NCBI RefSeq assembly: GCF_029227915.1
Contig: NC_079880.1
Location: forward strand, 13,598,001-13,662,000
Reading direction: 5' to 3'
Source of the DNA: Hydractinia symbiolongicarpus
Taxonomy: Eukaryota; Cnidaria; Hydrozoa; Anthoathecata; Hydractiniidae
DNA length: 64,000 nucleotides
Under the pieces are notes generated by a model. The model made no database searches. It was not told the DNA's origin and worked only from the letters and a program-made list of their open reading frames with translations. The first letter of the stretch is position 1; each line of letters begins with the position of its first letter. The translations under genes were made by a program, and so were the position numbers. Below are positions 12,877 through 62,180 of the stretch, one piece after another.

Positions 12877-13936
12877 ATGTTCTCAACCATATGCGCTTCA
12901 AAACATGACTTTGGGGGAATTTCACCACGCGAAATTAGAGGATAATGTCTACATGGTTTATGTGATGAAGCATAAGACAGCGTCGACCTCTGGCCCGGTT
13001 GTTCTTGCTTTTTCCACTTCACTATACAACGACTGCAGAGTGTACATTGATAAAATTCGAAATAAGATTCCAGGTGTTGGAGTGGAACCCAGCGATTTGG
13101 TTTTCATCAGTTGGAGTGGTAGGCAAATGACTTCATCTATGATCGGTGACCAATTCAATGCATTCTTTCAACGTGCTACTACAAAAAATCTTTTGGAAAG
13201 AAATAAAAGAAAGTTAACGGCAACGCTAGTACGCAAATCTTTCGTATCTACCGTGCATTCGTCTGTTCCTGGGTTGAAGCGCGACTTATCGAACATGATG
13301 TGTCACAGCGAAGATACCGCAGCTAAATCTTATTTTCTTCAGGAAAAAACAAAAAATGTAGCTCAAACATTTAAGCGAATGCATAGCGCCATGAGGTCAT
13401 CATCTTCATCTATGAGTAGCGAAGAAATTGAGAGGAAAATTACCGAAATCTTTAAAGATGTTTTGTCATCAGATGCTACCATAACTTTGTCATCAGTACG
13501 AGAGAAAAACGATCTGTTGGTGAATATTCCAATGACCGAATACCAAATTCGCGACAAATTAAGATACATTGTAGAAAACCAAAAACTGAGTAGGAGGGGG
13601 AATCAAACTTTAAATAACGAGGAAGACGTTTTACCTCCAACAGATGAGCTTGGGCCTCCTGAAGACTCAGATAGCTCTGCGCATGATGATCATTCTAAAT
13701 ATGAGTTCTCTGCTGAATGTCGGTCACGTACATTGTATCTTCCAAAAGAAGAGATTGCCATACGTAAAGCTTTTAAAGAAATTATAAGGCATCCTACCTC
13801 TTTTATTCGCCGTTCTGCTGTAGAACGCATTTTAAAGAACGATCGGAATCTGAAGGAAATTTACGAAAAACATGGTTTGCAGAAAATACTCGTGAAAGTA
13901 AGGACTGAGAGGCGGAAATATTGCTGTAAAAAGTAG
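12877..13936 (+). CDS. Tyrosine-recombinase-like terminal exon (Crypton-type)
   Basis: This is a roughly 352-codon open exon after the acceptor 'gttctag' at 12871-12876, ending at the TAG at 13934-13936. The fold signature of tyrosine recombinases is visible. There is a 'MTLGEF...KHKTASTSGP' beta region, then 'TLVRKSFVS' with the second catalytic Arg at 13232 (the usual HxxR His is Thr). 'MCHSEDTAAKSY' carries the third-box His at 13304 and the candidate nucleophile Tyr at 13331, with the classic nine-residue spacing. The first catalytic Arg appears replaced (SQPYAL where RPGAL is usual). A 200-residue C-terminal tail follows, with a Ser-rich segment, an acidic linker and a basic end (RTERRKYCCKK). 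The frame is undamaged and apparently spliced, which suggests a host or domesticated gene related to cnidarian Crypton-like proteins. It begins inside an exon, so there is no start codon. Confidence 0.7.
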
Positions 13937-22240: not shown

Positions 22241-22359
22241 TAGTGGGGCAAGATGGGACAAGAGTATAATTTTTCAGGCCTTATTCTAGGTTTGTTGTTG
22301 TATATGATTTGGTTCCAAACAACTTAAGTTTATTTCTATATTTCAGATTACAATTCAAA

Positions 22360-24092
22360 ATGGTTAGAAATTATGTCAGAAAAACAGAGAGGGCTGTGGT
22401 CTGAAGATTCAATGCTGGAAGCCATACGAGCTGTCAAAAATAAGGAGATGAGTTTACGTAAAGCTGCAGATGCATTCAATGTGCCTAAAAATGCTCTTCA
22501 CAGAAGGGTAACTGGTCAGTTAAAGTTACTCAGTGAGGATAACTTAAATACAAAAATACTGGGTCCTAAAAGGACAGTTCTAACCAAGGACCAGGAAGAT
22601 AAGCTTGTCAAGTATATTAGAGATATGGACACTGTATTTTATGGTTTGACAATTTAATGACATTCAACGCATTCTTTTCCAATATGTCGATAGAAACAAA
22701 ATTCCTCACCCTTTCAATGTGGTCTCAGGTCTTGCTGAAAGAGATTTTGTTGAAGGATTTCTGAAAAAAAACCCAATGTTATCTTTACGAAAACCACAGG
22801 GCGTTGCTCTTAATAGAATTTATGCACTTAACCGAGAGTCGGTATCAAGCTATTTTGCCAATTCAGAAAATATTTTAGACACTTATAAATTTCAAGCACA
22901 CCAAATTTATAATTGTGATGAATCTTGCATAACAGCAGTAAACAAACCAATGAAGGTGATTGCCCCAAAAGGCAAACACTGTGTCTCCTCAGCTACCAGC
23001 CGCGAGAAGGGAGTCACAACAACAATTGTGTGTTGCACCAGTGCTACAGGAAATTATGTGCCACCTTTAATGGCTTTTAAAAGGAAAAGAATGAAACCTG
23101 AACTCATTGATGATGCCCCACCTGGTACAATAGGAGGGTGCTCGGACAATGCCTGGATAACAACCGAACTTTTCCTCACATATATGAAACACTTTTGTGT
23201 ACATGTACGTTGTTCAAAGGATCAGAAAGTCTTACATATTTTTGATGGTCATGTTACACATACGAAAAACATAGAAACTATAGATTATTGCAGAGAGAAT
23301 GGTATTGTTTTATTGTCCCTACCATCGCACACCTCCCATTAGTTACAACCTCTAGATCGAAGTTTTTTTAAGCCACTGAAGACTGCTTATCACACAGAAT
23401 GTAGTCGATGGATGAGGGAACACCCGGGACGTAGAATAACTGTTGACCAGATTGGTGCAATTTTTTCAACTGCATATTGTAAAGCAGCCACAACTCAAAA
23501 TGCAGTTTCTGGTTTTAAAACAAGTGGAATTGTACCATTAAATCGTGATGTTATTCCTGATAGTGAATATGCTGATGATGCACGTTTATCAGTCGAGACC
23601 ACTTTACCCAATGTTACCACTGCACCTCAATCGTCCACTGTTACCAACACACCTCATTCATCACCTGTTGTGCTCTCTTCAACACCTGTTGAAAAACCTT
23701 CATCTTCAAAAGCTGCTTAATTTTCCATTGAAACAAGTTTTGAAAACATTGTTCCTGTAACAAACGTTAAAATGCCAGCAGAAAAGGGTGAGGAATCAAT
23801 TATTATAACAGCATCACCACATCGTAATATGGGAAAAAAATTGCCGAAGAAGAACAAAATAAAGGAAAATATGGATAAAAAATGCTTAAAACCGAAAAAG
23901 GATCGCGGGAAAGGTAAATCGAAAGCAAAAGTAAAGCTTGTTCTGGAAGACTGGGAGTGTTATGTTTGCAACGGACTGTGGAGCAATGCAAAGGAGGGTG
24001 AAAAGTGGGTCCAATGTGTACGTTGTGTGACCTGGTGCCTCGAAGAGTGCTGCACGTTTCCAGGTGGTCAAGCTCTATGTGACATATGTTAA
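22360..24092 (+). pseudogene. pogo/Tigger-like DDE transposase with C-terminal PHD-like finger
   Basis: The best start is the ATG at 22360 (MVRNYVRKTER), after which a frameshift leads into 'GLWSEDSMLEAIRAVKNKEM', a psq/CENP-B-type helix-turn-helix. A second frameshift near 22655 precedes 'NDIQRILFQYVDRNKIPHPF'. The DDE_1 domain carries the first Asp in 'IYNCDES', the second in 'HIFDGHVTH' and the third in 'LQPLDRSFFK'. A TAG at 23340-23342 immediately precedes that third block, and a TAA at 23718-23720 splits the C-terminus. The last 50 residues form a Cys-rich finger (C-x2-C ... C-x2-C ... C-x2-C, 'WECYVCNGLWSNAKEGEKW'). This is unusual to see intact at the end of a pogo protein, though known in some invertebrate families. 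It is non-functional as written. Confidence 0.85.
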
Positions 24093-24304: not shown

Positions 24305-24484
24305 ACACCTCCCCATTAAGTTTTAGTCATTTTTCCCAAATTTGATGATAGTTTTTGCTGATTATTTGGCTGCGCATAAATTGTAATAGGTATAGGTTCA
24401 TTTCAGGTGAAATTCTAAACTACTTCATTTTAACAGCAGGTGTTATTTAGGAAAATAACCTTAAGTGTCCCATCTTGCCCCGTA

Positions 24485-25954
24485 TTACGCTAATAAAACA
24501 TACAAATAAGAAAACTGACACAATAATTTCTAGCGCATCAGAAGAAACAATAAAAAAATGTCCATTTGTGAAAAAAACAACACCGTTAGAAATCCGTGCG
24601 TTTATTGGGTTGATGTTATATCGTGGTCTTTATAAACTCAATACTTTCACTGTGAGGAAACTGTTTTCAGATAGATATGGACCTCCAATATTTAGTGCAA
24701 CCATGTCGCGATACAGATTTTATTTTCTGATCGCAAACTTGATATTTGACGACGAAACCACTCGTGGCGATCGATGGAAAAAAGATCGTTTTACTGTAAT
24801 TCGAGATTTCCTTAAAATGTTCAACAAACAATGCATGACATGTCTTCGAGCATGTGATTATCTTTCCTTGGACGAAACACTTTCTCCAATGCGAACAAAA
24901 ATTGCATTCAAACAGTATAACCCAAATAACCCAGCCAAATGGGTTTACTTTTCAAATCGATAAACGCAGCTAGACACGCGTATACATACATCACCGCACC
25001 ATATGCTGAAAAGCCTCAAGAAGAGGGAGGAAAATTTTACTTTCCTGGAACAGAAACCATAACAAAACATCTTGTTTTGACATTGGATAAACATCAACCC
25101 CTCGATGGTCGAAACATATCATTTGACCGCCTCTACACTTCCTTCTCACTCGCAACGTTGCTCTTGATAGAGATCCATGTCACGTGTATTGGTACACTAA
25201 TGGCTAATAGGAAGGGTATACCAGCTAATGTGAAGAAGGTTGACCACAGAGAGGCACATTCCACTGAACTTTATTGGGAAAAAGAAGATCTTATTTTGGG
25301 TTCTTATGTGGTGAGTACGGCTACAGAGAAAAACAAAAATGTTCTCATGCTTTCGACAGTAAATCCCATTCTTGGTACAACCATTGCGATGACAAGAACA
25401 AAGCGGCACTTTATAAACTGTATGATTTCACCAAAGGCGGGACCGATATTGTAGATCAACGGATGGGCTTTTACACATGCAAGGTGAAATCTCGTAAGTG
25501 GTCCATGGCTGCATTTGCCTAAATTCTAGACATGGCTAGGGTGAATTCATAGATTTTGTACGAATTGAACAAAGAACTGTGTCCACTGAAGCAAAATTTT
25601 TTTGAATATGGCATGGGTGTTGTATTTGATCTTGTGAAACCATTTCTACAACAAAGAAATCAAGCCAGGTTATCACCAGCTGTGAAAACGAAGATAACGA
25701 TAACACTTATAACCATGAAAGCTGATACAGATCACGAAAACCTTGCCGCCAATTATGATAACCAGGATATTTACCCTGCATTAAGTAAAAAAAGGAGGCG
25801 ATGCAAAATGTGTATCAATAATCTCAAAACCCGTGAAGGTCAGAACTCCATATGCGGTGTATACTTCACTTGTCAGATGTGTGGAATTCAATTCATGTAT
25901 GTCGAAATCACTCCACCAACAAGTGCAACAATTGTATTAGCATTTCAAAGGTAA
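24485..25954 (+). pseudogene. piggyBac-like transposase, N-terminally truncated
   Basis: From the pogo right end the frame runs 'TPLEIRAFIGLMLYRGLYK', a typical piggyBac DDE-fold opening, then 'CDYLSLDETLSPMR' with the first catalytic Asp near 24870. A frameshift near 24940 leads to 'FDRLYTSFSLATLL' (second Asp, 25120). Another near 25400 leads to 'FTKGGTDIVDQRMGFY' (third Asp, 25445). A stop at 25520 and a stop/frameshift before 25556 precede the tail with 'RRRCKMCINN' and 'CQMCG', a RING-like Cys-rich finger. The missing first ~100 residues coincide with the pogo boundary, but I see no upstream half before 22.24 kb. Dead copy. Confidence 0.85.
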
Positions 25955-27229: not shown

Positions 27230-27935
27230 TGGGGGCGAACCCACCTGTTGTCGCCTACAAGTTGTTGCGACTGCGAAATTGCCCTGAAAGAGTCCCCTAT
27301 TGACTTCATGTTTGAAAAATAACAATTGTCTCCTTTTGTTCTTTAGAAGAGGAACACAAACAAGTGTTACGAGTTGTTGTGGTTGTTAGACTAACAGAGA
27401 GAAGATTGCTAACCAAGGAATAAGATCCGATTACTTCGTCAATGACTACGTGGAGCTTCTCAGGGACGTCTTGCTGATTGTTGCAATGAAATTCTTTTTG
27501 TTGTTGTTAAGAGTGTGCATTCTGTTTTGCAAAGCCCGCAGGAAATTGGAAGGATTGATAGGTGAACGGGAGCGATGTAAAAGGGACATATTTAGGACTA
27601 TTGACTTCAATAGTGGCGATAACAAAGAGGACTCTGATGGCAGTTCAGACCAAAGTCTTGGAAGGACAGTTAACACTTGAAAGATGGAGTTTGCATAGCA
27701 TGTGTTATCTTTGTTTATCAAACCGGCGTGGACATTGTTAGCTTTCTGCTTGGATTTGGTATTTTGGTCAACCGCAGGTTTTGGCAATGATGTAGCTGGA
27801 TACGCATTGTTATCGAAAAAAGAGTTTGATGCCAAAGGAGACACTTGAACATACATCTTTTGAGGTTGCGGATATTGTTGGACTGCATTCTTAGGATCAA
27901 TGCAAAGAATCTCTAGCAAATCAGATGTTATATAT
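27230..27935 (-). pseudogene. USP-family copy E (N-terminal half of the protease)
   Basis: On the minus strand a Ser/Pro/Lys-rich linker runs into the catalytic cysteine box 'GLINKDNTCYANSIFQVL', where G-N/D-TCY-x-NS is the ubiquitin-specific protease signature. 'SESSLLSPLLKSIVLNMSLL' and 'NPSNFLRALQNRM' follow, matching copy A. After a break near 27440 the zinc-finger start 'TCNTCLCSSSKEQ' appears in another frame (about 27330). The sequence then decays near 27230, before the His box. It is therefore a truncated, frameshifted copy. Its 5' side abuts a repeat end of the same family. Confidence 0.75.
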
Positions 27936-27936
27936 T

Positions 27937-28400
27937 GACCATTAAACAGGACGCGTAAAGCACAGAACACTAATAAAAAAACCTAAAAAGACAACAAACA
28001 AAACAATTAGCCAATTCAAACTGAATTAACAGGCACACGTAAAATAAATAAACCTTATTATGCGAAAGAATCCTTAAACGGATAAATCTTAGAATAATTC
28101 CTAACAGAACAAATGTAAACTAAGGCAGGCAACGATCTGTGCGCCAGGACTTGTGAACCTGGCTGTAGCTTTACACGTATTAAGGGCGCCCAACACTCAG
28201 ATCATTGCTGCTGTGGGTCAAACTAATGACAGTGCCAGCCTATCATGACTGGGGTGATGTGCGTGGGCGTCAAACCACGAAGACAAAATAAGAATATCAA
28301 ACCCCTTGTAATGCTTCTAAAATGACTCTGGGCAGCAGGATCGTCAATGATAAAGGCAAAGTGAGCAAACTTTGCCTCCCTACTCGAGTGGGTAACTATA
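27937..28400. repeat. USP-family terminal region, internal part
   Basis: 'accattaaacaggacg', 'aaacaaaacaattag', 'caattcaaactgaattaa' and 'cttaaacggataaat' are followed by 'gcgccaggacttgtgaacc', 'ctggctgtagctttacacgt', 'gcgtgggcgt' and 'gcagcaggatcgtcaatg'. All recur in the same order at 40.4-40.8 and 43.1-43.3 kb. The outermost end is missing, having been replaced by copy E. Confidence 0.75.
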
Positions 28401-40242: not shown

Positions 40243-41034
40243 ACAAAACAGCTAGCTGTAATGATATTTCTTGTCTAATGATAGCTGGTTCTACTATAGT
40301 TAGAGGTTGCAACTCTCTAGAGATTTTTCAAAAAAGCAAAATCCCCCTTTTTGCAAGGATTTCCTAAAAACATTGACCGTAAAAGGCAGAAAAATACAAC
40401 AGCGACAGAACACAACACTAAACAATAAATATTAAAGCAATTCAAAATGAATTGAATAGGTACAAATGAGATAAATAAAACTTATCATAACGTGAATATC
40501 CTTAAACGGATAAATTTAAAATTATTCTTTAGAGAATGTGTTTAAGAAGCAAACAACTATCTGCGCGCCAGGACTTGTGACCCTGGCTGTAGCTTTCCAC
40601 ATGTGTTATGGAGCTCCAACACTCAGCCTTACACAGATAATTGTTGCTGTGGACCTGCCTAATGACAGTACCAGCCTGTCATAACTTGGGTAATATGCGT
40701 GGGCGTAACACCACGAAGACCAGATAAGAAAATCTAACCCCCTTGCAAAGCTTCTTCTAAAATGACTAAGGGCAGCAGGATTGTCAATCCTGAAAGCAAA
40801 GTGAGCAAACTCTGCCTCCCTACTGGACTGAGGTAATAAGTGGGATCGTTAAGCCCAAAGACAAGATATGATATCAAGCCCCCTTGCTGTGCTTCTTACA
40901 GTGTCTCTATACAAAGAGAGGAGTGAGCAAACTCCGGTTTCACAGTGCACTGACCAACATAAATCAGCTGGGGTAAATAAAACCGCTAGGGTCATGGATT
41001 CCCTCCCCCATTTGTTGTGTGACATACAAATAAG
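40243..41034 (-). repeat. USP family: 3' flank and terminus of copy D
   Basis: The terminal motif ACAAAACAGCTAGCTG at 40243-40258 is followed by the full set of family landmarks, ending in 'aaccgctagggtcatgg' and 'ccctccccca' just before the copy D stop codon. In gene orientation this is a roughly 800-bp non-coding 3' region. The order of landmarks matches 42.86-43.54 kb. Confidence 0.75.
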
Positions 41035-41640
41035 CTAACTTCTGGAAAAGAAAAGTATGTATGACGAAGAATTATTCAAGTGGAATGTGTCTACTTGAGA
41101 AATACAGCGATCGTTGCATTTGAACCAGGTGTTTTGTTGGTCCTTAATGAAGGCCCAGTAATGACCTGCTTTTAATGTACCTGAGTGGTTAATGGTAGCA
41201 ACCAAGTTATACTTGTTGTTGAAAGACACATCGTCAGTTGGGTGAGATGCAACCTTTAAGACATGATGTTTTTTAGGCAAGCAATTGACTAACTTGTTGT
41301 CTTTAAAAGAAGACCCATTTACTGATGTGTATCTTAACAATTGTACAACAAGGAAGTCGCCGCAAGTAGAAATCTGAGTTTCAATTGTGGCCTCTTGATG
41401 CGATGAACACTGGGGGCAGAACCACTTGTTGTCACCTAGAAGTTCTTGAGGTTGCAAAAATTTGTTAAAAGAGTCTGCTATTGACTTACACGTTGGTAAA
41501 ATTAAAATTGAATCCTTTTGTTCCCTGGACGTGGAAAAACAACAGGAGTTGCATGACGTTGTTGTGGTCACAGTTACAGACAGTAGATTGTCAATCAAAG
41601 GGGAAGAAATACTAACCCACACGTAAATTTTAAAATTGGT
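41035..41640 (-). pseudogene. USP-family copy D (C-terminal half of the protease)
   Basis: The minus strand encodes the USP zinc insertion 'TTTSCNSCCFSTSREQ' with 'LQPQELLGDNKWFCPQCSSH' (C-x2-C ... C-x2-C), then 'CGDFLVVQLLRYT' and the catalytic His box 'INHSGTLKAGHYWAFIKD', 'WFKCND' and a terminal 'SSSYILFFSRS' before the stop. The frame is open across this region. The Cys box and endonuclease-like part are missing upstream, where unrelated sequence ('MSSPFPPKSML') replaces them. A complete USP needs the Cys box as well, so this copy is inactive. Confidence 0.85.
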
Positions 41641-41719
41641 TTCTGGAGTACCTTTGCAAGCGTCAGCTAGGGCAAACACCATCTTCAACATTGACTTTGG
41701 TGGGAAGGGGGAGCTCAAA

Positions 41720-42479
41720 ATGAAATTCTTAATGGATTATTTCCAGGGTTGTAGCTAACTGTATTAAAATTGAAAAGAAAAAGGGATTTTCTAGATCACA
41801 AATCGATTAATTTGGAGAAAGCAGATATAGAAGATGTAACTTTCCATGTGGAAAGGAAAATTTGGCAACTACAAATTTGATTTTTTTAAAAAATAGTTGT
41901 TGTTTCGTGGTCATAGCTTACATGGTACTGAGAGTCCAAAAGATGCAAAAATAAGGTAAGCCTGATAGCATCATTATCATATAACAAGCAATTATTTATA
42001 TAAAGTTCATTTATAAAAATACTTATTTCTCTCAGAGTCAATAAAACATTATTGTGTATATATGATAAAACTAACTATAGCTATACACAAGGACCGATAT
42101 AAACAATATATCATTTTGGAGTTCTGAAATATTTCGAATTCTAGACACAAAATAACATAGTGAGTCCAATTGAGAGTATGATTTGAATAAAAGCTAAAGC
42201 AGAAAAATTAAACTTAAAAATCAAATTTGATATTAAAGCCTCAAAATTTTAGATGTAACACTTGCACCATGTCCTGACATACTGAAAAGAAATACAGCCA
42301 ACACAAAAAATGCGATCGGTTGGTCCAAATCGTGATGATAAAGAACTCACCAAGCACCTGACATCAGATGAAATAAACCATGCATTATTGACACAATGAC
42401 TAGCAATAATATCAAAACCATCTTTTCCATCCTGACGTTTTATTAAGTCACACCACACTGTGTTAAGTAAGTAATGGGA
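41720..42479. other. Spacer upstream of copy D
   Basis: AT-rich, no gene supported. A 69-codon minus-strand frame at 42249-42458 has no recognisable motif. Confidence 0.4.
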
Positions 42480-42858: not shown

Positions 42859-43542
42859 ACAAAACAGCAAGCTGTAGTGATTCAGTCTAATGACTCTTAT
42901 TTTAAGTGGTAGAGGTTAAACCCTCTAAAGATCTCTATGCAAACCAAGATCTCCCTTTTACAAGGATGGTCTGTACAATCAAGTTAATTGAAAAAGCAAC
43001 CCCCTGGACAATACAAATATTGCAACAACAAAACAAAAAAACAACATATATTGCCATAAAACGCCATAAATATACAAATAAATAAAAACTATAAAAAGAG
43101 GGCAAACAACTACCTATGCGCCAGGACTTGTGAACCTGGCTGTAGCTTTACACGTGTTACGGGATCCCAACACTCAGCCTTACACAGGTGATTGATGCTT
43201 AGGACCAGCCTGAAGTTACTGGGGTGATATGCGTGGGCTCCACACCCCCTTGCAGAGCTTCTTACAAGAATAACTATGTGTACAGCAGGATCGTTAACCC
43301 TGTAGACCAAGTGAGCAAACTTGGCCTCCTTGCTGGACTGGGGTAAAAAGTGGGGTCGTCGCAAAGACAAGACATTTCGAACCCCCTTGCTATGCTTCTT
43401 ATGATTACTCCAGAAGAAAGTGAAGAGTGAGCAAACTCTAAGTTCACGGTAGACTGCTTGTGACAGAAAACAGCCGGAGTAATACAAAACCGCTAGGGAA
43501 AGATAACCCTCCCCTTTTATGTGAATGTTAATCAGACAATTT
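42859..43542 (-). repeat. USP family: 3' flank and terminus of copy A
   Basis: The terminal motif ACAAAACAGCAAGCTG at 42859-42874 is followed by 'gtagaggttaaaccctctaa', 'caagatctcccttttacaag', 'gcgccaggacttgtgaacc' and on to 'accgctagggaaagataacc' next to the copy A stop. A minus-strand open frame of 125 codons inside it has no protein-like features and is not counted as a gene. Confidence 0.8.
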
Positions 43543-43944
43543 TTAAATTTTCACAAAAAACAACACATACACAGAAGAGTTATTTAAATCGGATGGTGCA
43601 ACTCTAACAACTGCTTTATCGTCACATCTTAACCATGAGCCACAGCTGCGATCTTTAATGAATGCCCAATTCTTATGATTACTCTAAAAGAAAGTGAAGA
43701 GTGAGCAAACTCTAAGTTCACGGTAGACTGCTTGTGACAGAAACAGCCGGAGTAATACAAAACCGCTAGGGAAAGATAACCCTCCCCTTTTATGTTAATG
43801 TTAATCAGACAATTTTTACATTTTCACAAAAAACAACACATACACAGAAGAGTTATTTAAATCGGATGGTGCAACTCTAACAACTGCTTTATCGTCACAT
43901 CTTAACCATGAGCCACAGCTGCGATCTTTAATGAATGCCCAATA
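43397..43944. repeat. 274-bp direct tandem duplication
   Basis: The segment from 'cttatgattactcc' at 43397 to 43670 is repeated at 43671-43944 with only a handful of differences. It duplicates the 3' end of the USP copy A gene, including its His box and stop codon, plus the first part of the 3' flank. The near identity points to a recent event. Confidence 0.9.
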
Positions 43945-45452
43945 GTGACCTGCTCCTGAATGATTAATAGTGGCAGCTAACGAATATTTGTTGTTAATTG
44001 ATATGTCATCCGTTGGCTGAGAGCGAACTGTAACAATGTTGTCATTTGAAGCAAGGCAGGTAACAAATTGTTATTTCTTAGAGTTCTTCCATCAAGAAAC
44101 GTAAACCTCTTCAGTTGGATAATTAGAATGTCTCCACACTGGGTGAAAAACGTTTCGCTTGTACTGTCTTGATAAGAAGAGCACTGCGGGCAAAGCCACC
44201 TGTCATTTCCAGACAAATTTTCGGGCTGCAAAAAACAATTAATTGAACCTGTAACGCTGTTTGAGATAGGGAGTGGCACAATAGGCATACTTTCCTCCCT
44301 GCTAGTTGATAAGAAGCATGCATTACATGACGTCGTAGTGGTGATAATGTTGGTGATGATATTATTTGCGATAACCGAAAGGCCTGTTAATTCACCCAAG
44401 ACATGAAGCAGTATTTCTGGCACGTCCTGCTGGGTATTAATGTTGAATGGGGTCTTCCTAATGCTGGACATCTCACGCTGCAAGGCTCTTAAGAAGGCGG
44501 AAGGGTCAACAGCTGTGGAAGACTGGGACAGCATGGACATACTGAGCATAACAGACTTCAATAGAGGAGAAACAAGAGAAGATTCCGAAGCACAACGTAA
44601 CCAAAATGATGGGATTGCAGTTAATGCTTGCAGGATGGAATTGGCGTAACAGGTGTTTCCTTTATTTATTAATCCTGCGTAAATTACTTTGCTGTGGGTA
44701 GGTGGGTGTGGCCCTGCTTTAAGAGGTGTATTGGGCTTGGTGACTGTTGGTTGTTTGGCCTTTGGCACTGGAGGAATGGGTATGGAATAGTTGGTTGAAA
44801 TAGGGATGTGGCTGTGTTCATTCCATACCTTGGTATTTCTAGCAACCCAAATACAGAAAGAAGCTTTCATGCACATGTCGCCAAGTTGACGAGCAGCTTG
44901 AAAAGATTTTCTGCGACCCAATCCCAGTCTTTCAAACACGAAGAAACAGATCCAGAGCAGTAGCCTCTGCCACCTACTTCGATGGCAAAAAGATCTATAT
45001 GCCAACCGTTTTGTTTGATGATGTTCACCAGAGGATTGTATTTGGACATCTTAGTTGAATGCCAAGTTTCCATATTTTCCTCGCATGGACAGACAGGTAA
45101 GCTCTCTTACAATCACATGCTTTCTGTTGTTGGAATAGATAACAAGATCTGGCCTGAGTGATGTTAAAGCAACATGCCCAGGGAAAACAAATCCGTCCTT
45201 TAAGTCAGACAAAATCATCCAATCGCAGGCGAGATGTAAAGGACCTGTAAGTTTAGACTTTTTACCAGGAGTGTGGGCACCAGCTTTAACAAACTTAATG
45301 CTATTTAGCTGTTTTACAGGTGACGTGATGGACTTACAAAAAGTACTGAGCAACTCCAGAAGTTCTTTTAAAACAGAATCGTGGCGGAATGTAAATCTAC
45401 CCCGCGCAAGAGCAGTATTGCAGGCACCTAGGATGTGAGGTGTGGTGCACAT
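43543..45452 (-). pseudogene. USP-family copy A: CCHC/endonuclease-like domain fused to USP
   Basis: This is the most complete copy. From the N-terminal side it reads 'CTTPHILGACNTALARGRF' and 'FRHDSVLKELLELL', the end of a zinc knuckle and the RHD box typical of R2-like C-termini. Next are 'LHLACDWMILSDLKDGFVF', 'TSLRPDLVIYSNNRKHVIV' and 'RELTC', a PD...E nuclease-like core. Then, after a frameshift near 45060, come 'KYNPLVNIIKQNGW' and 'FAIEVGGRGYCSGSVSSC', and after another near 44870 'MKASFCIWVARNTKVWNE'. A Pro-rich linker joins it in frame to the USP Cys box 'AGLINKGNTCYANSILQAL' (44680), the zinc insertion 'TSCNACFLSTSREE' with 'WLCPQCSS', and 'CGDILIIQLKRFTF'. A frameshift near 43980 precedes the His box 'INHSGAGHYWAFIKD'. 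It is a decayed gene, but the fusion is clear. Confidence 0.85.
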
Positions 45453-45645
45453 TTTTTTTCACATAAAAAACAAGAGGATTCAGTGTATATCCGCCAACGC
45501 TTTAAATTACCCGGGGACGGAAGTTTGGTTGCATTGCCAACAAGGATTTCCAGGAGAGATTGTGCTTGATGTAGTTATTCCATTTACTCCAGTACCCTTT
45601 CACCTGAAGTTGCGTTGTTGGTGTTGTTAGGAATTACTATTGCCA

Positions 45646-48852: not shown

Positions 48853-49895
48853 TTAAAATGACCTAAATGTATCCGATACACATGTTATGGTTTTTTCCTC
48901 CTTGAGACAAAACACCGGTGCCAAACTACCAATACAACACAAGTTAGTATTGCCCCTTGCAATGCCTGAGAGTTCCTCTCTTGAAGAAATACAAAAACAG
49001 GTATCACATGTTACAGTTGAAGTGATGGTCACCTTAGACATATAGTCAGCAGGTTAGCAGTATTATTTTCTGATATTTTCATTTAAAAACCCCTAAAATA
49101 ACTTGATGGGTCAATGTATGATGGAGAACATTAGCGCATAGACATTTTAAGTACGAAAGCCTTTGTATTTGGAAAGAAGCAGGAAGACTTAGACGGCCAC
49201 TGAGAGCACAACAACGGACACACGCAAGTGTTGCCTTTGTAAATAAAGCCTAGTTTTCTCGAAATTCCTTGATTTACATGGTACGGTTTGGTGGAATGTG
49301 GAATTCGGTTGGCAATCTTGTTTCCGTGATGGTTATTGATTTAGCAAGGGCTTTTTTCTCGGTGTTTTTAGAATGTTCATGGTTGCTTTTATACGAGGAG
49401 AGATTGCTGGGCCATTCTGTAGTGTTCCTTACTAACCATATACAGAAACAGGTTTCCATGCTTTTGCGGCTTAGATTTTTAACTGTGCGAGTATGGAACT
49501 TTAAGCAGGAGGTGATAGTGTTCGGACAACTCCGTCTAGCTCCTATTTGCTGCAATGACATTGACTAAGGATTAATACTTCGTTGTTTACCCCATATTTA
49601 CCTTGCATGGACATGCTAGTTCTATGAGTATTATTCTTTTAAGGCAGTTGGAAAACATAACTATGCCTTGTCCTAATTCGGTCATTGCAATATCACCAGG
49701 ACAAGAACTCAAGTTGTTTAGTCTGGATAGGATTTTCCAATCTGAGGCAAGATAAAAAAAATACCTGTTGGCAAACTTTTTCATTTGGCAAGTTCCTGGG
49801 CCGATTTTTACAAAGATGTATTTGGTGATGCGCGTTGATGTTGGATGGTAACCTTCCTTTTGGCAAAGATATTCTACATGATACAAAAACATAGG
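48853..49895 (-). pseudogene. USP-family copy B, truncated
   Basis: Minus-strand blocks repeat copy A's order with heavier decay. They are 'LASDWKILSRLNNLSSCPGD' (where A has DWMILSDL), 'IVMFSNCLKRIILIELACPC' (the nuclease strand pair), 'METCFCIWLVRNTTEWPS' (A: MKASFCIWVARNTKVW), a Lys/Thr-rich linker, 'LGFIYKGNTCVCPLL' (degenerate Cys box near 49250) and the zinc start 'TVTCDTCFCISSREEL' (48990). The His box is missing. The PD aspartate has become GQG, so the nuclease core is lost. Confidence 0.7.
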
Positions 49896-50244
49896 ACGAA
49901 GTGCAGACTGCTTTCCTGCCTAAAAGACAAGGTAGCTTCTGTGTTAATATGCCAGCGTTTCAACTTAGATGGGGAGGGTAAAACATCAAACTTAGAAGCT
50001 AGACAAAAAGAAAGTAAATTTGGAGGCATGTCAAGCTCCTCTTGCTTTATGTATTTCTCCCATCTTGCTCATCGCCCTTGTACTTCCATCTGGAGAGCTT
50101 TAGACATGGACAATTTGTCATCAATTTGTTCAGACTTGTGACTGGCCAGCTTTCTACGTGCATGGCTGGGTATGTTTATATCTGCATTTTTTCCTTGTGA
50201 GTCTTACTTGTTCCACTGAACAGTATTATATGTAAAAAAGGTTT

Positions 50245-50740: not shown

Positions 50741-50929
50741 CCTGGTAGTACAGGTTTAAAGCAACAGTGAAGGTATTTTAAAAAGAGGAAAGTTAAAAAA
50801 TAAAAAATATAGCAGCGGGTATAAAAGAAAACATGATATAGTGCTGTTGCGCGTTATTGGATCAACATTGCTTATTGCCTTGTCATTGCAGAGGTATCAA
50901 GAAAAAAACCTTCAAGAAATTTATTATCC

Positions 50930-52690
50930 TTTACCAGATGTTCTCCATCTCTTGCAAACCTTGCAGGTGCAAGGTTAAAATTTCGCTATTCCTCGTAATC
51001 TTTGTTTCCCTAGTGCTCTCTTGGTGCAGGGAACATTGTGGGCAAAACCATTTATTTTCATTCTCCAGATTTTCGGAATCTAAAAATATACCAACTGACA
51101 ATTGTACGCCGGAAGACGGTGACATTGTTAGGATGTACTGATTTTTAACAGTAACAGAAGAACAGAGACAGGTGTTACAGCTAACTGACACCGATACTTC
51201 TGTCAAGATGTTCTAAGACGTAATTAGAACCCTTTCAATTCATCAAAGACAAGAAGTAACATCTCTGCTACATCTTGCTGAGATTTGATTGTGAGATAAC
51301 AAAACAGCAAGCTGTAATAATGGAACTAGTCTACTGACTCTTTCGTTTTTGAATTGTAGAGGTTACACCCTCTGGAGATCTATATTCAGTGCAAGATCTC
51401 CCTTTTTACAAGGATAGTCTGCAGAATTAAGGTAATTGAACTAAAGACCCTATATAAACATTACATCACAAACACCTACTGACAGTTACAAATTGCTATA
51501 CGACATAGAAAGAAAAATATAAATATAAAACTATAAATACAAAACTATAAATAAGAGTAGACAACCACCCATGCGCCAGGACTTGTGAACCTGGCTGTAG
51601 CTTTCCACATGTGTTACGGGATCCCAATACTCAGCCTTACACAGGTGATTGACGCTTGGGACCAGCCCTATGTCAGGACCAGCCTGAAGTTACTGGGGTA
51701 AAATGCGTGGGCGTAAATCGTATTTCCAGAAGAGTGTCTCTTACGTTCTAGGGCCTTGAGAAAGTTTGAAGGATCAACGGGGGGCAAAGAACAGTTTAAC
51801 AGGTCTTGTTAAGATCAATCACTCTCATAATTGGTGACAAGCGGGGTGACTCCGAAGCACTCTGGGACCATAGCGATGGAATAGTACCTAGTGCTTGCAA
51901 AATAACATTGGCATATCACATATTGCCTTTGTTGACAAAACCTGCATTTATAAAATTTGTCTTTGTTTTGGCACTAGTTTTGCTATGGTTGGTTTTTAGA
52001 GAATCCGGAGTGCGTGGACCTGATATATGATCCTTAGGCAATTCTTTTACTGGAGCTGGATTACTTTACAAGATGCAACAGACTTGGGTGGAAAAGTCTT
52101 TCTCGTTCCGGGTGCCTTAATTAACGAGTCTCCTGACTACCGAGCAATCCATACACAGAAAGAAGCTGTCATAATGATTTTACCAAGGTTTTTGCGGTGA
52201 AATATGCCATTTTGTTGGAAAACCCCAGCCTTTTCAGACAAGACGTGGTTGTTCTCGCGGAATAACCTCTTGCCTCTACTTCTACAGCAAAGAAATGAAC
52301 TTGTCAACCACTGGATAGAATTACGTTAAACAAGCAAGAATATTTAGTGACTTTGGTGGAGTGCCAATAGTTTGTATTTTCTTCGCAAGGGCAAGTGAGT
52401 CCGATAATTATAACTCGTTTAGGATTATTTGATAAGATAACTACATCAGGTCTTAGCTGTGACACAGTAATGTGGCCTGAAAAAACAAAGTTTCGAATAG
52501 TGTCGGCAACAACTATCCAATCGTTGGTGAGATGCAATATACCTGTAAGCTTGGTCTTTGTTTGGGGACCAACATAAGCACCTGCCTTGACAAAATTCGT
52601 AGAATTACATTTCCTAGAGGTGAGTAGAAGTGCTGACAGGAATTCTTTTAAAGTGTTACTTGGCTCAGCATGCAGTCATTTAGCAGCTTA
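50930..52690 (-). pseudogene. USP-family copy C, interrupted
   Basis: Minus strand, from the N-terminal side: 'NDWIVVADTIRNFVFSGHIT', 'SQLRPDVVILSNNPKRVII' and 'LTCPCEENTNYWHSTK' (nuclease-like core, 52530-52330), 'IMTASFCVWIAR' (52170), then remnants of the Cys box region ('NKGNICYANVILQALG', with Ile for Thr, 51930-51890) and 'SASESPRLSPI'. A 430-bp piece of the family's own terminal region interrupts it at 51290-51725. The zinc insertion 'VSCNTCLCSSVTVK' with 'KWFCPQCSLHQEST' follows (51200-51020). The His box is absent. Confidence 0.75.
51290..51725. repeat. USP-family terminal fragment inserted in copy C
   Basis: It begins with gtgagataACAAAACAGC (core 51299-51314), runs through 'gcgccaggacttgtgaacc' and 'cctggctgtagctttccaca' and stops at 'gcgtgggcgtaaatc'. 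It separates the zinc part from the Cys-box part of copy C, so the family has inserted into itself or been rearranged. Confidence 0.7.
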
Positions 52691-55630: not shown

Positions 55631-55754
55631 GTCTTTCCGCTAACGGAAAACAGCTAATCACGAAACCAAGAGTTACATTCTTAAGTTATTTGTACGTCTA
55701 TAAACGTTGAATCACATATGAACTTTGCGAATTGATAACACATTGGGACAAGTT

Positions 55755-58700
55755 ATGGCTGCAACAAATACGCCGTTAGTGATGAACACAGACGCCACCA
55801 GGAACGATGCACAAATGAACAATCTGACGATAACTATGAGAAATTCATGTATACGATGCAAAAGAACTTTCAAGACGAGCAAAGGACTCTTGGTTCATTT
55901 GAAAGCTTGCAAAAGAAAAGAGGTATCATTAGTAGACAACTCACCGACGCAAACACCGAAGGAAGAAACTTTATTTAAATTCAAGTGGAATGAGGTAGAA
56001 GGCGAAAAAGTTAGCAAAGATCTCGACATGATTTATAATGAGATTGTGTTTTGGAAAAAGAATTTGTTTATACTACCATCAGGTAACGCTGGAAAGTCTT
56101 ATATTAGGGAACTCACTCGTCTAGTTAATGCTTGGAACAATAGTTCACCTCTTCGCAGTATTGCAATGAAAGCGATCCATGTTATGCCAGCCTTGCTACT
56201 ACAGAAACCAAGTAAAAAATCAAAAGCGAAAGACCATCAACTAGCTCTCGAAAAGCGATTGAAAATGTGGCACGAAGGAAACTTCTTGGAACTTTATACA
56301 GAATGTTTAACTATACAAAGCCGTATGACGAACGCATATGCAAAGAGAGATATATCGGCGATATCTAAAAAGTTTAAACTATTCATGCAGAAAGGAGACG
56401 TCAACTCAGCAATGCGATTATTATCTAATAGTATGCAGAATGGAATTCTTCCGTTAAATGACGAGACCTTGATGCTGTTAGAACAGAAGCACCCGAATGC
56501 ACAAGAGGTATGTGGGGATGATGAAATCTTACTCAATTTTCCGTTACAGAGAATACACCCCATTGCCTATGACGTCATTGACGAAGACCTTGTATTGGAT
56601 GTTGCTGCTCACACGAAAGGAGGATCTGGACCATCGGGTCTAGACGGCGATGGATGGAGGAGAATATTATGCTCTTCTTCGTTTGGTACTACGAACTCAG
56701 ATTTGCGGAAGGCTATTGTTGATATGATAAAGAAATTGTGCACGGAGAAGATAACTGACTCAGAGGGTGGTGGTGATTGTTTGGAAGCTTTTGTGGCATG
56801 CCGTATGATCCCTTTGAATAAGAATCCTGGTCTGAGGCCCATTGGGGTAGGAGAGGTTTTGAGACGAATTGCTGGGAAGGTAGTTATGCGTGTAGCTAAA
56901 AAGGACATCATGGAATCAACTGGGTCTTTACAAGTCTGTGCTGGACAGGACGCGGGTGCAGAGGCGGCAATTCATGCTATGCATGATATTTACGAGAATG
57001 AAGAAACAGAAGCGGTGCTACTGATCGATGCTGAGAATGCATTTAATTCTATCAATCGGAAGGCGATGCTACATAATATTGCAGTCCTTTGTCCTCTTAT
57101 TTCTACTTTCATGGAAAATTGTTACAATGTTCCGGCACGTTTGTTTGTTATTGGGGGTAAAGAACTGTCATCAAAGGAAGGGACTACTCAAGGTGATCCG
57201 ACCTCTATGGCGGCATACGCAATTGGAGTTTCGCCTCTTCTTAGAATTCTTCTTGATTTTATGAACACTAGTGGTAACAATACGGCAAAACATGTTGCAT
57301 TTGCGGATGATTTCACTGTAGCTGGTAAATTGTCAGAGATAAAGAGCTATTGGGAAAAATTGACTTCGATTGGGCCGAAATTTGGTTACTTTCCGAAGGC
57401 TGACAAGTCTTATTTGATTGTCAAAGCAAGATATATAGAAAGCGCAAACGAAATTTTTAAAGAGATGCATGTGAAAATAACGTCATCGGGTCAAAGACAC
57501 CTTGGAGCTGTCATTGGAGATATCAATTACAAAAACCAATATGTGAATAGTAAAATTCAAGATCTTTCGAATCAACTCCAGCTACTTTCACAGATTGCTG
57601 TTATGGAACCACAGTCTGCATTTACTGCCTTCAACGCTGGTTTCAAATCGAAATTTACGTATTTGATGAGAACTATACCAAATATTTCGAAAAATTTACA
57701 ACCAATCGAAGATATCATACGTAACGAATTTCTTCCAGCAATTACCGGAGGACATTGCTGCTCAAACGCTGAAAGGGATCTCCTATCCTTACCGATTCGT
57801 CTGGGTGGCTTGGGAATCACTAATTTCGTGAATGAAAGCGACTTTGAGTATGACAACTCTCGTTCCATCACTGCTTCACTTTCCAAAGCCATTTACGAGC
57901 AAGTGGACAAATCTATCTGCGAGATTGAAAAACGTCATTTGAAGAATCAAATCAAGGACTCTCGCAACAAACGTCATGAGGACAGATTAACAGATGTTAA
58001 AAAAAACTTAGACGAAAAACAATTACGATTAAACGACATATGCAGTGAGAAAGGTTGCTCCAACTGGTTGACAGTATTGCCATATGCTGAACACGGATTT
58101 GATCTCAACAAGCAGCAGTTTTGGGATGGAATAAAGCTCCGTTATAACTGGCCTGTTGAAGGATTACCGACGCATTGTGTTTGTGGGTCGACATTTGACA
58201 TTCAACATTGTTTGAGTTGTAAGAAAGGTGGGTTTGTCACGCTTCGACACAACAACATACGTGACATAACGGCATCCATGTTAGGTGAGGTTTGTAAGGA
58301 TGTGGCAATTGAGCCTTCGCTAATTGGGTTGACTGGCGAAACTTTTGATTTAGAATCTGTGAAAAAGGGGGATGATGTAAGAACGGATGTACGTGCTCGG
58401 GGATTTTGGACGAAGGGTCAACAAGCATTTTTCGACGTAAGGGTTTTTGATCCCAACGCTTCGAGACACCTTCAGCATACTCTCCAACAATGCTATGCAA
58501 AGAATGAGGCGGAGAAGAAAAGGCAATACAACACTCGCATCAACAAAGTTGATAACGGGACATTCACGCCACTGGTATTTTCTCTTTACGGAGGAATGGG
58601 AAGAGAGTGTGCGACTTTTTACAAGCGTCTCGCAGAAATGATCGCCGAAAAACGTAAAATAAATATTTCTGTTGCATCATCTTGGGTCAGAACTAAGATT

Positions 58701-58817
58701 TGTTTTGCTTTAATTCATGCTTGTTTGCTTTGTTTGAGAGGTTCGAGAGGGATTTATAAAAGAATCGAAATGGGGGATGATATTGTTTTGAGTGAGTTGT
58801 CAAGTTGTATCAAGTAG
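55755..58817 (+). CDS. Single-ORF retrotransposon protein: zinc finger, RT, CCHC, REL endonuclease
   Basis: The first in-frame ATG is at 55755 (1020 codons); a five-codon upstream ATG frame at 55718 overlaps nothing essential. N-terminal C-x2-C-x12-H-x3-C finger at residues 32-52 ('CIRCKRTF'...'HLKAC') probably binds target DNA. The reverse transcriptase spans roughly 280-600: 'LRPIGVGEVLRRIAGKVV', 'LLIDAENAFNSINR' (catalytic Asp 425), 'EGTTQGDPTSMAAYAIG' and 'HVAFADDFTVAG' (FADD at 516-519). The C-terminus has a Cys/His knuckle 'CVCGSTFDIQHCLSCKKGGF' at about 808, 'RHNNIRD', and the nuclease-like 'RTDVRARGFWTKGQQAFFDV' near 877-897. No APE endonuclease is present. The layout is that of early-branching, target-selective non-LTR elements (R2/NeSL/Utopia-like). 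The clade is not resolved by eye. No frame damage: potentially active. Confidence 0.9.
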   Translation: MAATNTPLVMNTDATRNDAQMNNLTITMRNSCIRCKRTFKTSKGLLVHLKACKRKEVSLVDNSPTQTPKEETLFKFKWNEVEGEKVSKDLDMIYNEIVFWKKNLFILPSGNAGKSYIRELTRLVNAWNNSSPLRSIAMKAIHVMPALLLQKPSKKSKAKDHQLALEKRLKMWHEGNFLELYTECLTIQSRMTNAYAKRDISAISKKFKLFMQKGDVNSAMRLLSNSMQNGILPLNDETLMLLEQKHPNAQEVCGDDEILLNFPLQRIHPIAYDVIDEDLVLDVAAHTKGGSGPSGLDGDGWRRILCSSSFGTTNSDLRKAIVDMIKKLCTEKITDSEGGGDCLEAFVACRMIPLNKNPGLRPIGVGEVLRRIAGKVVMRVAKKDIMESTGSLQVCAGQDAGAEAAIHAMHDIYENEETEAVLLIDAENAFNSINRKAMLHNIAVLCPLISTFMENCYNVPARLFVIGGKELSSKEGTTQGDPTSMAAYAIGVSPLLRILLDFMNTSGNNTAKHVAFADDFTVAGKLSEIKSYWEKLTSIGPKFGYFPKADKSYLIVKARYIESANEIFKEMHVKITSSGQRHLGAVIGDINYKNQYVNSKIQDLSNQLQLLSQIAVMEPQSAFTAFNAGFKSKFTYLMRTIPNISKNLQPIEDIIRNEFLPAITGGHCCSNAERDLLSLPIRLGGLGITNFVNESDFEYDNSRSITASLSKAIYEQVDKSICEIEKRHLKNQIKDSRNKRHEDRLTDVKKNLDEKQLRLNDICSEKGCSNWLTVLPYAEHGFDLNKQQFWDGIKLRYNWPVEGLPTHCVCGSTFDIQHCLSCKKGGFVTLRHNNIRDITASMLGEVCKDVAIEPSLIGLTGETFDLESVKKGDDVRTDVRARGFWTKGQQAFFDVRVFDPNASRHLQHTLQQCYAKNEAEKKRQYNTRINKVDNGTFTPLVFSLYGGMGRECATFYKRLAEMIAEKRKINISVASSWVRTKICFALIHACLLCLRGSRGIYKRIEMGDDIVLSELSSCIK

Positions 58818-59284: not shown

Positions 59285-59985
59285 AGAATAAGAAAATAAA
59301 TGTGGGGTCGTCACACTCAAAGACAAGACTTGTAGGAAACTGTAGAAAGGGAACTAAGCAAGTCAACCCCCTTGCTGGGCGACGTTCTAATATATAATTT
59401 TTATAATTTTTAAATTCTTCTTTGTGTCACAGCTCTGTCATTGCAGTGAAGCCACTGGTCTGTCTTTTGGTCTTGAACAATGGATGTATAGTGCCCATTA
59501 TTAAGAGAACCAGAGTGGTTTATAAGCGCTCTGGTCTTAAAGTGCTAACGAGTTCTTACCTCAGGCTCGATGGTAACAGAAAGGAATAAGAAGTCTGGAA
59601 AACAAGAAACCGGCGACACTTGTTTCGAGATATAACCATTTGACATGATAAAACGTTTTAATTGAACTAAAAGGTGTGAACCACTGTTCACAATTTCTGT
59701 CTTTCGTGTTGCTGTTAGATAGGAATTACACAGAGCGCGAAAACACGTGTCAAAACCTCTGGTTGTCAGAAGGGGGTTTAATGACTCTTAAATTGTGGGT
59801 CTTGGTTGCAATTCCAAAAATAGAGACATTTCATCAGTAGAGTGCAATTAGAAACATGTGTCACGTGGTTGTAGTTCTAGCGCAAAACTGGAACATGGTG
59901 GTAGTAAAAAGCGAGTCTGTAGCAAGTTCACTTAGCAAATATCCTAGGATCTCAGGTACAAAATGCTGTGTAAAAATATCAAAGT
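59285..59985 (-). pseudogene. USP-family copy G, divergent protease fragment
   Basis: The minus strand shows 'HFVPEILGYLLSELATDS' (copy A: DVPEILLHVLGELTG) near 59960-59900, a degraded zinc region, 'GSHLLVQLKRFIMSNGY' (59690) and the His box 'INHSGSLNNGHYTSIVQDQ' with 'QWLHCNDRAV' (59530-59430). Family 3' landmarks ('tggggtcgtcacactcaaag', 'cccccttgctggg') follow at 59290-59385. It differs from A and D enough to be a separate subfamily. Frameshifts and a stop interrupt it, and the Cys box is missing. Confidence 0.75.
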
Positions 59986-59992
59986 TATGATA

Positions 59993-60837: not shown

Positions 60838-62180
60838 ACAAAGCAGAAAGCTGTAATGATTGAACTGTTTACCGACTCTTTTGTTCATAACATCCGCCTA
60901 CGTTAAGTCACAGCTACATCAGGTGTTATTATTAATGTTGTATTAAGATCACACATAACTTTCCAATCTGAAGCTGAATGGAGAATGCCTATTGGAGGTT
61001 TTTTCTTCCTCGCCATGGAGTAAGAACCAGCAGAAACAAAACAAAAAATTCTAGATTTGTTGTAGGGAGATGGTTTGTATGACGATTAAAAAATATTGAA
61101 AGTAGGTTACAAGGGTGCGTAACAGTGTCATGACTATATGTATAGCTCACCTAAATTAAGGCAACTTTAAAAGCTCCTAAGATATGGGGAACTGTACAGA
61201 AGTTTTTTGTACACAAACTACAGCCTGCGTAATTTTGTAATCCCCAGCGATCTAGATAACTTGGTGAAGGCAGTGTGTCATATGTGGACCCAATGCGAAA
61301 TGAAATTAGACAAGGGTGCTCCACGAAAGATCGGTTTTCACGTAACTGCACCATTTTATCCAGTTGCTGTAGTCAATATGTTGTGGATCATCTGACCTTT
61401 TTCCTGCATTATATAGAGATAAAAAATTTAATACTTTGTAAGCACAAAGTCACTGCCATGAAATAAGCACTACAGATTCGTGCATTATTCACTTGAATTT
61501 CACTTTGCAGCCAGTTCTTTCGTCTTAGCGCAGCTATCAACCTTTTCTGTCGTTTCTTTTTCTCAGTCTAGCAGGGAATCTGTAAAAACTCAATTCTTTG
61601 TCACTCCCATCTCTTCTATTTTCACATTGTATAGCATAGCAACTGTCAGGTATGTCGAACAATCTGCAAAAGACGTACTTTTCAGTAGCTAGCAGTTATG
61701 TTTGCTTTACCTGCCCAGAATTTCCGTACGCGCAGTAGAATTAAATCAACAATCCACGGAAATTTGGCTCAGCAAGTTATCTATACGCCATTCACGTTTA
61801 ATTAGCAGAAAAAACTGCATTGTTGAGATCCAGAAGGTGTAATTCAAATAAGAAAAATCATATCAATTTCTTACATATAATTGCGTACATGCCATTTTCA
61901 AATTTACCGGTTCTTACAGCTACTGGTGCACTAGCCACGTCCCATATAATTGGATTTAAACTTAGTTTTTCGAAGAAAGTTAGTTGTGAAAAGCAATCTA
62001 GAATTTTAATTGCCAAGTTTAGTATTAAAATAGTTGACTTAATGATGGTGGCCTTATAGATCCAAGTTGGACAGTATTCATGCTTGTAAAAAAGTATATT
62101 CAGCACCTTCTTCTAGGAGCCTAAGCTCAGTTGTGACAACCACCATCCTGCAAACAAGATGCTTCAGTGCAGCTCGCTGG
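60838..62180 (-). mobile_element. USP-family element inserted in the LINE (copy H)
   Basis: The left end has ACAAAGCAGAAAGCTG (60838-60853). The right end (62055-62180) is the inverse of the 50.245-kb terminus ('cagtattcatgcttgtaaaa', 'aagatgcttcagtgcagct'). Both termini of one insertion are thus visible, about 1.34 kb apart, inside a recognisable target (LINE ORF1). This is the best evidence that the family is a mobile element with inverted termini. It carries the nuclease fragment below and no protease. Confidence 0.7.
60905..61360 (-). pseudogene. USP-family copy H: CCHC/nuclease-like region only
   Basis: The minus strand reads 'CLISFRIGSTYDTLPSPSYL', 'DRWGLQNYAGCSLCTKNFCT' and 'VPHILGAFKVAL', giving C-x2-C-x7-H (the last knuckle Cys is Phe here; Cys in copy A). 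A frameshifted block 'YSMARKKKPPIGILHSASDW' with 'KVMCDLNTTLIITPDVAVT' matches copy A's 'PGKKSKLTGPLHLACDW'. It stops at the element terminus, so the PD...E strand pair and the entire protease are deleted. Confidence 0.7.

Follow-up and report, generated by a model that had tools for sequence, protein, structure and literature searches.

A ubiquitin-specific protease fused behind the endonuclease in an R2-type retrotransposon of Hydractinia symbiolongicarpus

R2 elements are retrotransposons without long terminal repeats (non-LTR) whose protein binds its own 3′ untranslated region (UTR) RNA, which is structured, cuts one strand of the target and starts copying the RNA at that nick. The R2 reverse transcriptase (RT) is also capable of template jumping. 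In R2Tg and R2Bm (structures 9dou, 9nl3, 8gh6), RT and a restriction-like endonuclease (RLE) lie in one protein with a CCHC-type zinc knuckle between them, and R2 has a 3′ end fixed without poly(A) and variable 5′ ends. The element described here, present as broken copies in a 64-kb stretch of the genome of the hydroid Hydractinia symbiolongicarpus (the window; contig C6, 13598001–13662000), shares this protein layout, such ends and a structured 3′ UTR, and adds a ubiquitin-specific protease (USP) of ~300 amino acids after the endonuclease. It also differs in having no single target site, its 3′ ends adjoining 11 different flanks. The R2 clade proper occupies a site in the 28S rRNA gene and carries N-terminal C2H2 finger(s) and Myb; the Hydractinia element is not tied to that site, as judged by eye from its 3′ flanks, and two of its families, F1 and F2, have no C2H2 finger by a simple pattern. 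Judged from its RT, knuckle, endonuclease and ends, it qualifies as an RLE-type (R2-like) non-LTR element.

Among RLE-type long interspersed nuclear elements (LINEs), many members of the HERO clade are not site-specific (PMC4640811). Going by this published description only, HERO resembles the Hydractinia element in RLE type and dispersed insertions, and differs in that the passages describing it do not mention a USP. The nearest precedent in principle is given by NeSL-1 and the nematode Utopia-1_TSP, RLE LINEs with a protease of the ubiquitin/SUMO world, in their case an N-terminal Ulp1-like cysteine protease (PMC4640811); the fold there is Ulp1 and the hosts are nematodes, whereas here the protease is a USP (class C19), C-terminal, and found in a hydroid and other hosts. 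Ubiquitin/SUMO proteases are also described from Ginger1 (C-terminal OTU or Ulp1), Mutator-like elements (Ulp1), Helitrons (OTU) and a Trichomonas protein joining transposase_11 to a peptidase C19, the protease class seen here (PMC2836005). Unlike the Hydractinia element, these are DNA transposons and not target-primed retrotransposons. The element combines two known kinds, RLE LINEs and transposons with ubiquitin/SUMO proteases, and is well supported as a fusion. A complete USP joined to an R2-type retrotransposon behind its endonuclease seems to be undescribed in the open-licence literature searched, where titles and abstract openings gave no USP or deubiquitinase on a non-LTR or LINE element, a Repbase entry being possible. 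Term searches found neither protease nor ubiquitin in the main text of a paper on cockroach R2-like elements (PMC7650587), and no ubiquitin in the Hydractinia genome paper (PMC11067881).

Broken repeats are abundant in the window. An earlier note on this DNA had described a knuckle, RHD and PD...E region followed by a Pro-rich linker and USP boxes, with further copies on the minus strand, and both parts of this description hold. Read on the minus strand, copy A encodes, one after another, a knuckle and RHD motif (ILGACNTALARGRFTFRHDSVL), an RLE core (RPDLVIYSNN...VRELTC, the second half frame-shifted at 45091–44930), a Pro-rich linker and a USP with a Cys box (KGNTCYAN), a Cys4 zinc insertion of two CxxC pairs and a His box (AGHYWAFIKD). 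The protein of L031, an intact copy elsewhere in the genome, matches copy A by tblastn over residues 873–1384 (37% identity, E 6.5e-99), and further minus-strand pieces at ~27.2–27.8, 41.0–41.7, 49.3–50.2, 50.9–52.7, 59.4–60.0 and 60.9–61.4 kb, with a short N-terminal piece at 3.4–3.6 kb. Pfam UCH/USP was matched at 43980–45050 (E 6.8e-17), 41038–41736 (E 1.9e-21) and 27449–27982 (E 6.5e-6); the endonuclease pieces 45054–45458 and 52307–52675, each searched alone, matched no Pfam family. Copy A is decayed: its RLE is broken by a stop and by frame shifts, its USP by one frame shift, and its RT part, which intact copies do have, is nearly gone. Its end has been duplicated locally at a spacing of 273 bp.

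The complete element was recovered from the 481-Mb genome (76 contigs). A search with PF00443 gave at least 150 matches (149 scored of 1016 candidates), some of them ordinary host USPs. Among the best 30, 28 carry an element-type USP (263–377 bits to an element profile) and two (L001, L002) look like ordinary host genes; the knuckle–endonuclease is present in the fetched stretch for 24 of the 28, and was not found within the stretch fetched around the USP at L003, L010, L013 and L020. RT, knuckle–RLE and USP run in one stop-free frame of 1426 amino acids in L031, L032, L033 and L034, 1423 in L035 and 1379 in L036. L042 (1422 amino acids) is alignable across the RT, RLE and USP parts, and L043 is broken. 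L031–L035 and L018 belong to family F1, and L036 and L042 to F2. In L031, Pfam places RVT_1 (PF00078) at residues 339–609 (E 8.1e-16) and UCH at 1137–1423 (E 3.7e-32), with a weak zf-RVT match under the cut-off at 828–892; NCBIfam gave no match on L031 or on P0063, a fused relative. The note's central claim, that one frame joins an R2-type endonuclease to a USP, is thus borne out by intact copies and many homologues, and its alternative of intervening stops or separate families side by side is not what the intact copies show. We consider this anatomy and fusion practically certain. The window is read as holding decayed copies of an R2-type non-LTR retrotransposon encoding one protein, RT, CCHC knuckle, RLE, flexible linker and USP; taken together with the workings proposed below for this protein, the reading has a probability of about 0.6.

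The residues expected of working enzymes are largely kept across the family. The class boxes of USPs (Cys, His, Asp/Asn) are all present. In a set of 66 near-complete USPs from the elements, none lacks the catalytic Cys and 65 have the His and the Asp, the sole row without these two (P0071) being truncated; the four zinc Cys are kept in 64, 66, 66 and 66. Across 53 aligned rows the RLE never varies at its P-D, E and K, nor does the RT at its catalytic D and DD across 44, and the knuckle Cys/His are invariant or nearly so. By profile and by fold, the best PDB match of the RT–RLE part is R2, to which a model of the element protein aligned over 677 residues spanning the R2 endonuclease, and the linker is disordered (pLDDT < 50) in the predicted structure of an intact relative. 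The modelled USP has the complete fold with zinc fingers, its closest solved folds led by USP2, USP4 and USP8. With cellular USPs (USP2, USP8, USP4/15, USP36) it shares this fold, the catalytic triad and the Cys4 fingers, and differs in sequence (~20–30% identity over the matches shown), in its fusion to RT–RLE and in standing apart in trees, although not beyond doubt. These sequence and structural features make it very probable that the element USP is an active deubiquitinase. A weak Pfam match to the ubiquitin-like APG12, below the cut-off (F1 residues 676–730, E 0.041; F2 613–670, E 0.0043), was rejected because the modelled stretch is helix and loop without strands. A simple pattern scan N-terminal to the RT found no C2H2 finger in F1 (L031) or F2 (L036), and found C2H2-like fingers in the fused relatives P0063, P0062, P0070 and P0076, a hint that target recognition was lost in the Hydractinia proteins.

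The ends of the copies are those of a mobile element. The 3′ ends of F1 copies fall within 2 nt of one base (GTAAACCTTTTTCATC) without poly(A), and because this one fixed end stands in 11 differing flanks the copies represent independent insertions; no shared target motif was seen by eye at these flanks, no formal motif search having been made. Starts at the 5′ side vary between copies. The full unit of L031 is 5368 bp, and those of L032–L035 are 99.6–99.8% identical to it. L031 lies, as judged by eye, in a gypsy-like RT frame, and its insertion would have removed ~15 bp of target if the usual gypsy RT motif was present there. In all five F1 loci fetched whole (L031–L035), 111–1031 bp of another unit's 3′ end precedes the unit at the same junction, L032 continues into a second unit, and RLE matches of another family form an array of five with ~5.3 kb spacing (contig C13, 23678942–23700812); no head-to-tail 5′ repeats were seen at the F2 loci L036 and L042. 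Head-to-tail units with a fixed junction fit template jumping, or transcription that begins within the 3′ end of the unit lying upstream. LTRs were rejected, since the direct repeats of F1 are head-to-tail 3′ end pieces of varying length. Penelope-like elements, considered on account of the partial head-to-tail repeats, were rejected as well: the RT and endonuclease match R2 best, and the 1426-residue protein has no GIY-YIG (Pfam, E <= 0.1). One F1 copy (L018:3233–3861), truncated at its 5′ end, carries there a stretch of its own element in inverted orientation, such as twin priming might leave. Near its start the F1 5′ UTR repeats a 19-nt unit (GACACTGGGAAAGACTAGT; L031:1217–1295) in tandem about four times. 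An Rfam search of five loci (E <= 5) gave one chance-like match and nothing relevant, with no known ribozyme at the ends.

A 93-nt element in the 3′ UTR is common to three element families (13 rows, 87% mean column identity), and the USPs of these families are synonymously saturated between families, no pair falling under a synonymous divergence (dS) of 1.6. A structure of four helices, drawn from one aligned sequence, which favours it in the slide test, has 91.8% of cells paired against 31–47% in slid versions; it carries 14 double changes against 5.0 (standard deviation 2.0) in shuffles, the rows being related, and RNAalifold gives much the same structure. Further pair types are within the shuffles (81/500 reach the count). 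The single-sequence fold of a 126-nt piece of the 3′ UTR is unremarkable (z −1.54); the claim of structure is carried by the covariation counts. By analogy with R2, this RNA is likely a handle for the RT.

Relatives of the protein are widespread. A search with L031 residues 300–1426 against 5.8 billion proteins returned 124 proteins, 120 of them listed; by our own count, PF00078 and PF00443 occur together in 53 of these, which stem mostly from ENA assemblies, with some from JGI and others. With the USP of P0063 as the query, further fused proteins were obtained (P0121, P0123 and P0124, each with both domains), and a third search, with the USP part of L031, gave 11 proteins only. Two homologues in Pseudomonadales metagenome bins (P0016, P0054) are read as misbinned eukaryote DNA, and 50 and 21 pattern matches in prokaryote genome contigs and viral contigs included no confirmed relative. 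The named relatives without USP are fish proteins (~35% identity, query coverage <= 71%) and three partial Hydractinia gene models. For a tree of the RT–RLE part, 95 rows were thinned by hand to 75 (20 close relatives dropped), P0119 being lost to the length filter. One branch (SH-aLRT 100) separates 56 rows, of which 46 have a USP, four a partial USP and six none, from the other 19, all without USP; P0050, one of the six, may be a truncation. A FastTree analysis of 99 rows with P0119 as outgroup gave the same grouping (63 tips in the clade, support 1.0). The domain fusion, the three catalytic residue sets, the multicopy dispersal with a fixed 3′ end and the deep clade holding the fused homologues are established at the level of sequence and structural model. 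A tree of the USP itself separates 43 sequences of elements from 21 cellular USPs (support 97/88; 96% of 200 bootstrap trees) with six odd cellular rows excluded, and the support is 80 with all 27; the cellular sample consists of the returns of the P0063-USP and L031-USP searches and one host gene. Two arrangements with two captures, in which the two element branches group with different cellular USPs, are worse, yet neither is rejected by the approximately unbiased (AU) test (p 0.238 and 0.062). AU tests of each element sub-branch as one side of the branch rejected neither (p 0.315, 0.435) and are irrelevant to the number of captures. A single capture of the USP is the simpler reading of these trees, and unproven.

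Several observations weigh against the reading of the window as remains of a retrotransposon with a working USP. The earlier note had expected clean target duplications around the copies, and this was not borne out: none was convincing at any of the four loci with both ends read (L031, L033, L034, L035), where no shared word exceeded 6 nt; a shared 7-mer by itself would have a chance of 0.12. In L036 one residue of the Cys box and one next to the catalytic His are changed, so single copies may be impaired. Five USP-less rows (P0064, P0067, P0069, P0072, P0075) form a nested clade (support 100) whose frames stop 13–42 amino acids past the endonuclease match; we read this, from the sequences, as probable loss of the USP, which would make the USP dispensable somewhere. 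Nonsynonymous divergence (dN) is 0.22 in RT, 0.36 in RLE and 0.53 in the USP, the fastest of the three. The USPs of L036 and L042 give a dN/dS of 1.03 from 11 and 3 changes, L031 and L032 differ over residues 300–1426 by seven nonsynonymous changes and one synonymous, and no constraint on the USP is visible between young copies, in which changes are few. The dN/dS ratio was dropped as a test, changes being too few within a family and saturated between families; only the dN ranking (RT < RLE < USP < linker) is informative.

By the example of R2, the element protein would bind its own 3′ UTR RNA, the RLE would nick DNA and the RT would copy the RNA from the nick by target-primed reverse transcription. 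The USP would act in cis, mainly removing ubiquitin from the element's own protein or ribonucleoprotein, which would thereby escape proteasomal removal long enough to integrate; a second role, in which histones or repair factors at the nick would lose their ubiquitin, would be compatible with this. The earlier note had suggested, likewise tentatively, that the USP might stabilise the proteins of the element or modify chromatin. Protection of its own protein as the main role of the USP is a tentative proposal that we would rate somewhat short of an even chance.

Two explanations would dispense with the element altogether. Unrelated repeats might lie side by side by nested insertion or chimeric assembly, and the window copies are indeed broken and nested. 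An RLE search of the genome gave at least 153 matches (150 of 805 candidates scored), and among the matches listed a USP follows on the same strand (allowed distance −100 to 800 nt) for 51 of the best 100, leaving 49 unpaired. Both lists being lower bounds, the 49 are no measure of USP absence, and when five of these stretches were fetched (L037–L041) a USP was present in 5/5, frame-broken; a USP-less sub-family in Hydractinia is rejected for these five of the 49. The 51 pairs lie 94–484 nt apart, 22 of them at 148–149 nt. With such spacing, and with single open frames across both parts in dispersed copies and in the 53 homologues, chance neighbourhood has next to no probability and is in our view refuted. 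Equally negligible is a domesticated host gene family: predicted host genes (LOC130629774 and others) do overlap the family, but matches to RLE and USP number at least 153 and 150 genome-wide (the latter including some ordinary host USPs), and nearly identical copies scattered over the genome, which share a fixed 3′ end but differ in their flanks and in where they start at the 5′ side, one of them within the gypsy-like frame judged by eye, argue for mobility.

Granted a mobile fusion, the USP might act on the target and not on its own protein, stripping ubiquitin at the nick from the histones H2A/H2B or from factors of repair and damage signalling, which would open chromatin or damp the damage response during integration. 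Tethered by a flexible linker after the DNA-cutting domain, the USP would sit at the cut; a repair-related role has been proposed for ubiquitin/SUMO proteases of transposons by Bao et al. (PMC2836005), and the lack of a C2H2 finger before the RT in F1 and F2, by the simple scan, makes another route to target chromatin conceivable. The closest folds, with USP2, USP4 and USP8 leading, do not indicate a chromatin substrate, and we consider action on the target unlikely as the main role, though not by far. Much less probable is a non-catalytic module that binds ubiquitin and tethers the protein to ubiquitinated chromatin; the complete fold with its zinc fingers would serve this, but mere binding would let the Cys drift, and Cys, His and Asp are kept in 66, 65 and 65 of 66. 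Protection of the element's own protein remains our preferred role for the USP.

Table 1. Features of the window (and one of L031) related to the element; positions count from the first base of the window
Feature	Position	Strand	Evidence
Copy A: CCHC knuckle with RHD and first endonuclease half (RPD...ELTC), open up to stop	45051–45458	−	translation, tblastn
Copy A: second endonuclease half (KYN...EVGGRGYCS), shifted frame	44930–45091	−	tblastn to L031 residues 998–1051, 61% identity
Copy A: Pro/Lys-rich linker, in frame with USP, limits approximate	44680–44790	−	read from translation
Copy A: USP domain	43822–44680	−	PF00443 E 6.8e-17, tblastn
Copy A USP parts: Cys box; Cys4 insertion; His box	~44.65 kb; ~44.18–44.33 kb; ~43.95 kb	−	
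Copy A USP: single frame shift	near 44.02–44.07 kb	−	
Local tandem duplicate: copy A USP end and 3′ UTR start	43468–43670	−	second copy 43741–43943, 99%
Conserved four-helix RNA element of the 3′ UTR, downstream of copy A	43106–43196	−	alignment, structure
Copy B: C-terminal two thirds of USP	41038–41736	−	PF00443 E 1.9e-21; 92% identity to family F2 (L036)
Conserved 3′ UTR RNA element, downstream of copy B	40553–40645	−	alignment
Copy C: endonuclease; linker and USP pieces	50911–52654 (52178–52654; 51707–52026 and 50911–51283)	−	tblastn
3′ end piece of another copy, nested in copy C USP	51513–51653	−	tblastn, sequence comparison
Copy D: N-terminal USP half	27232–27982	−	PF00443 E 6.5e-6 (27449–27982), tblastn
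Copy E: pre-knuckle region and degraded endonuclease	49298–50194	−	tblastn
Degraded USP piece	59422–59992	−	tblastn
Degraded knuckle/endonuclease piece	60906–61362	−	tblastn
Conserved 3′ UTR RNA element, further window copies	51561–51653, 28129–28209, 4466–4549	−	alignment
Conserved 3′ UTR RNA element in L031	L031:6146–6238		alignment

The window also holds, on the plus strand at 55722–58817, an intact frame of 1031 amino acids whose sole Pfam match at E <= 0.1 is RVT_1 (E 5.6e-9), a different and possibly young retroelement. Plus-strand frames at 22328–23720, 24451–25454 and 12791–13936 resemble what we take to be pogo-type and piggyBac-type transposases and a tyrosine-recombinase-like protein. 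Across the genome, element matches occur in mirrored or shifted pairs of equal or near-equal score on contigs C2 (~32.3–36.0 Mb), C7 (~22.0–32.7 Mb) and C1 (~8.9–11.1 Mb), which suggests segmental duplications on a very large scale, those of C2 and C7 being inverted, or else duplication in the assembly. Of the best 100 RLE matches, 49 fall in the 12 fullest 2-Mb bins (mean 26 and maximum 32 in 2000 random draws), a clustering to which arrays and duplications contribute.

Hydractinia is a model animal, as its published descriptions present it (PMC10411563), and it holds near-identical intact copies of the element. R2 proteins are under development as gene-insertion tools, according to the accounts in PMC11371274 and PMC12180492, which lends practical interest to a naturally occurring R2 relative that brings a deubiquitinase along. 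The fusion raises a concrete question, namely whether host ubiquitination restrains target-primed retrotransposition and the element counters it in cis. It is possible, if still somewhat doubtful, that the fused proteins represent a large and old eukaryote LINE clade with its own working deubiquitinase, captured once in ancient times and kept since in most lineages because its life cycle requires host ubiquitination, whether of its own protein or of target chromatin, to be countered. If so, hosts would widely use ubiquitination to defend themselves against retrotransposition, and the USP would be the element's dedicated counter-measure.
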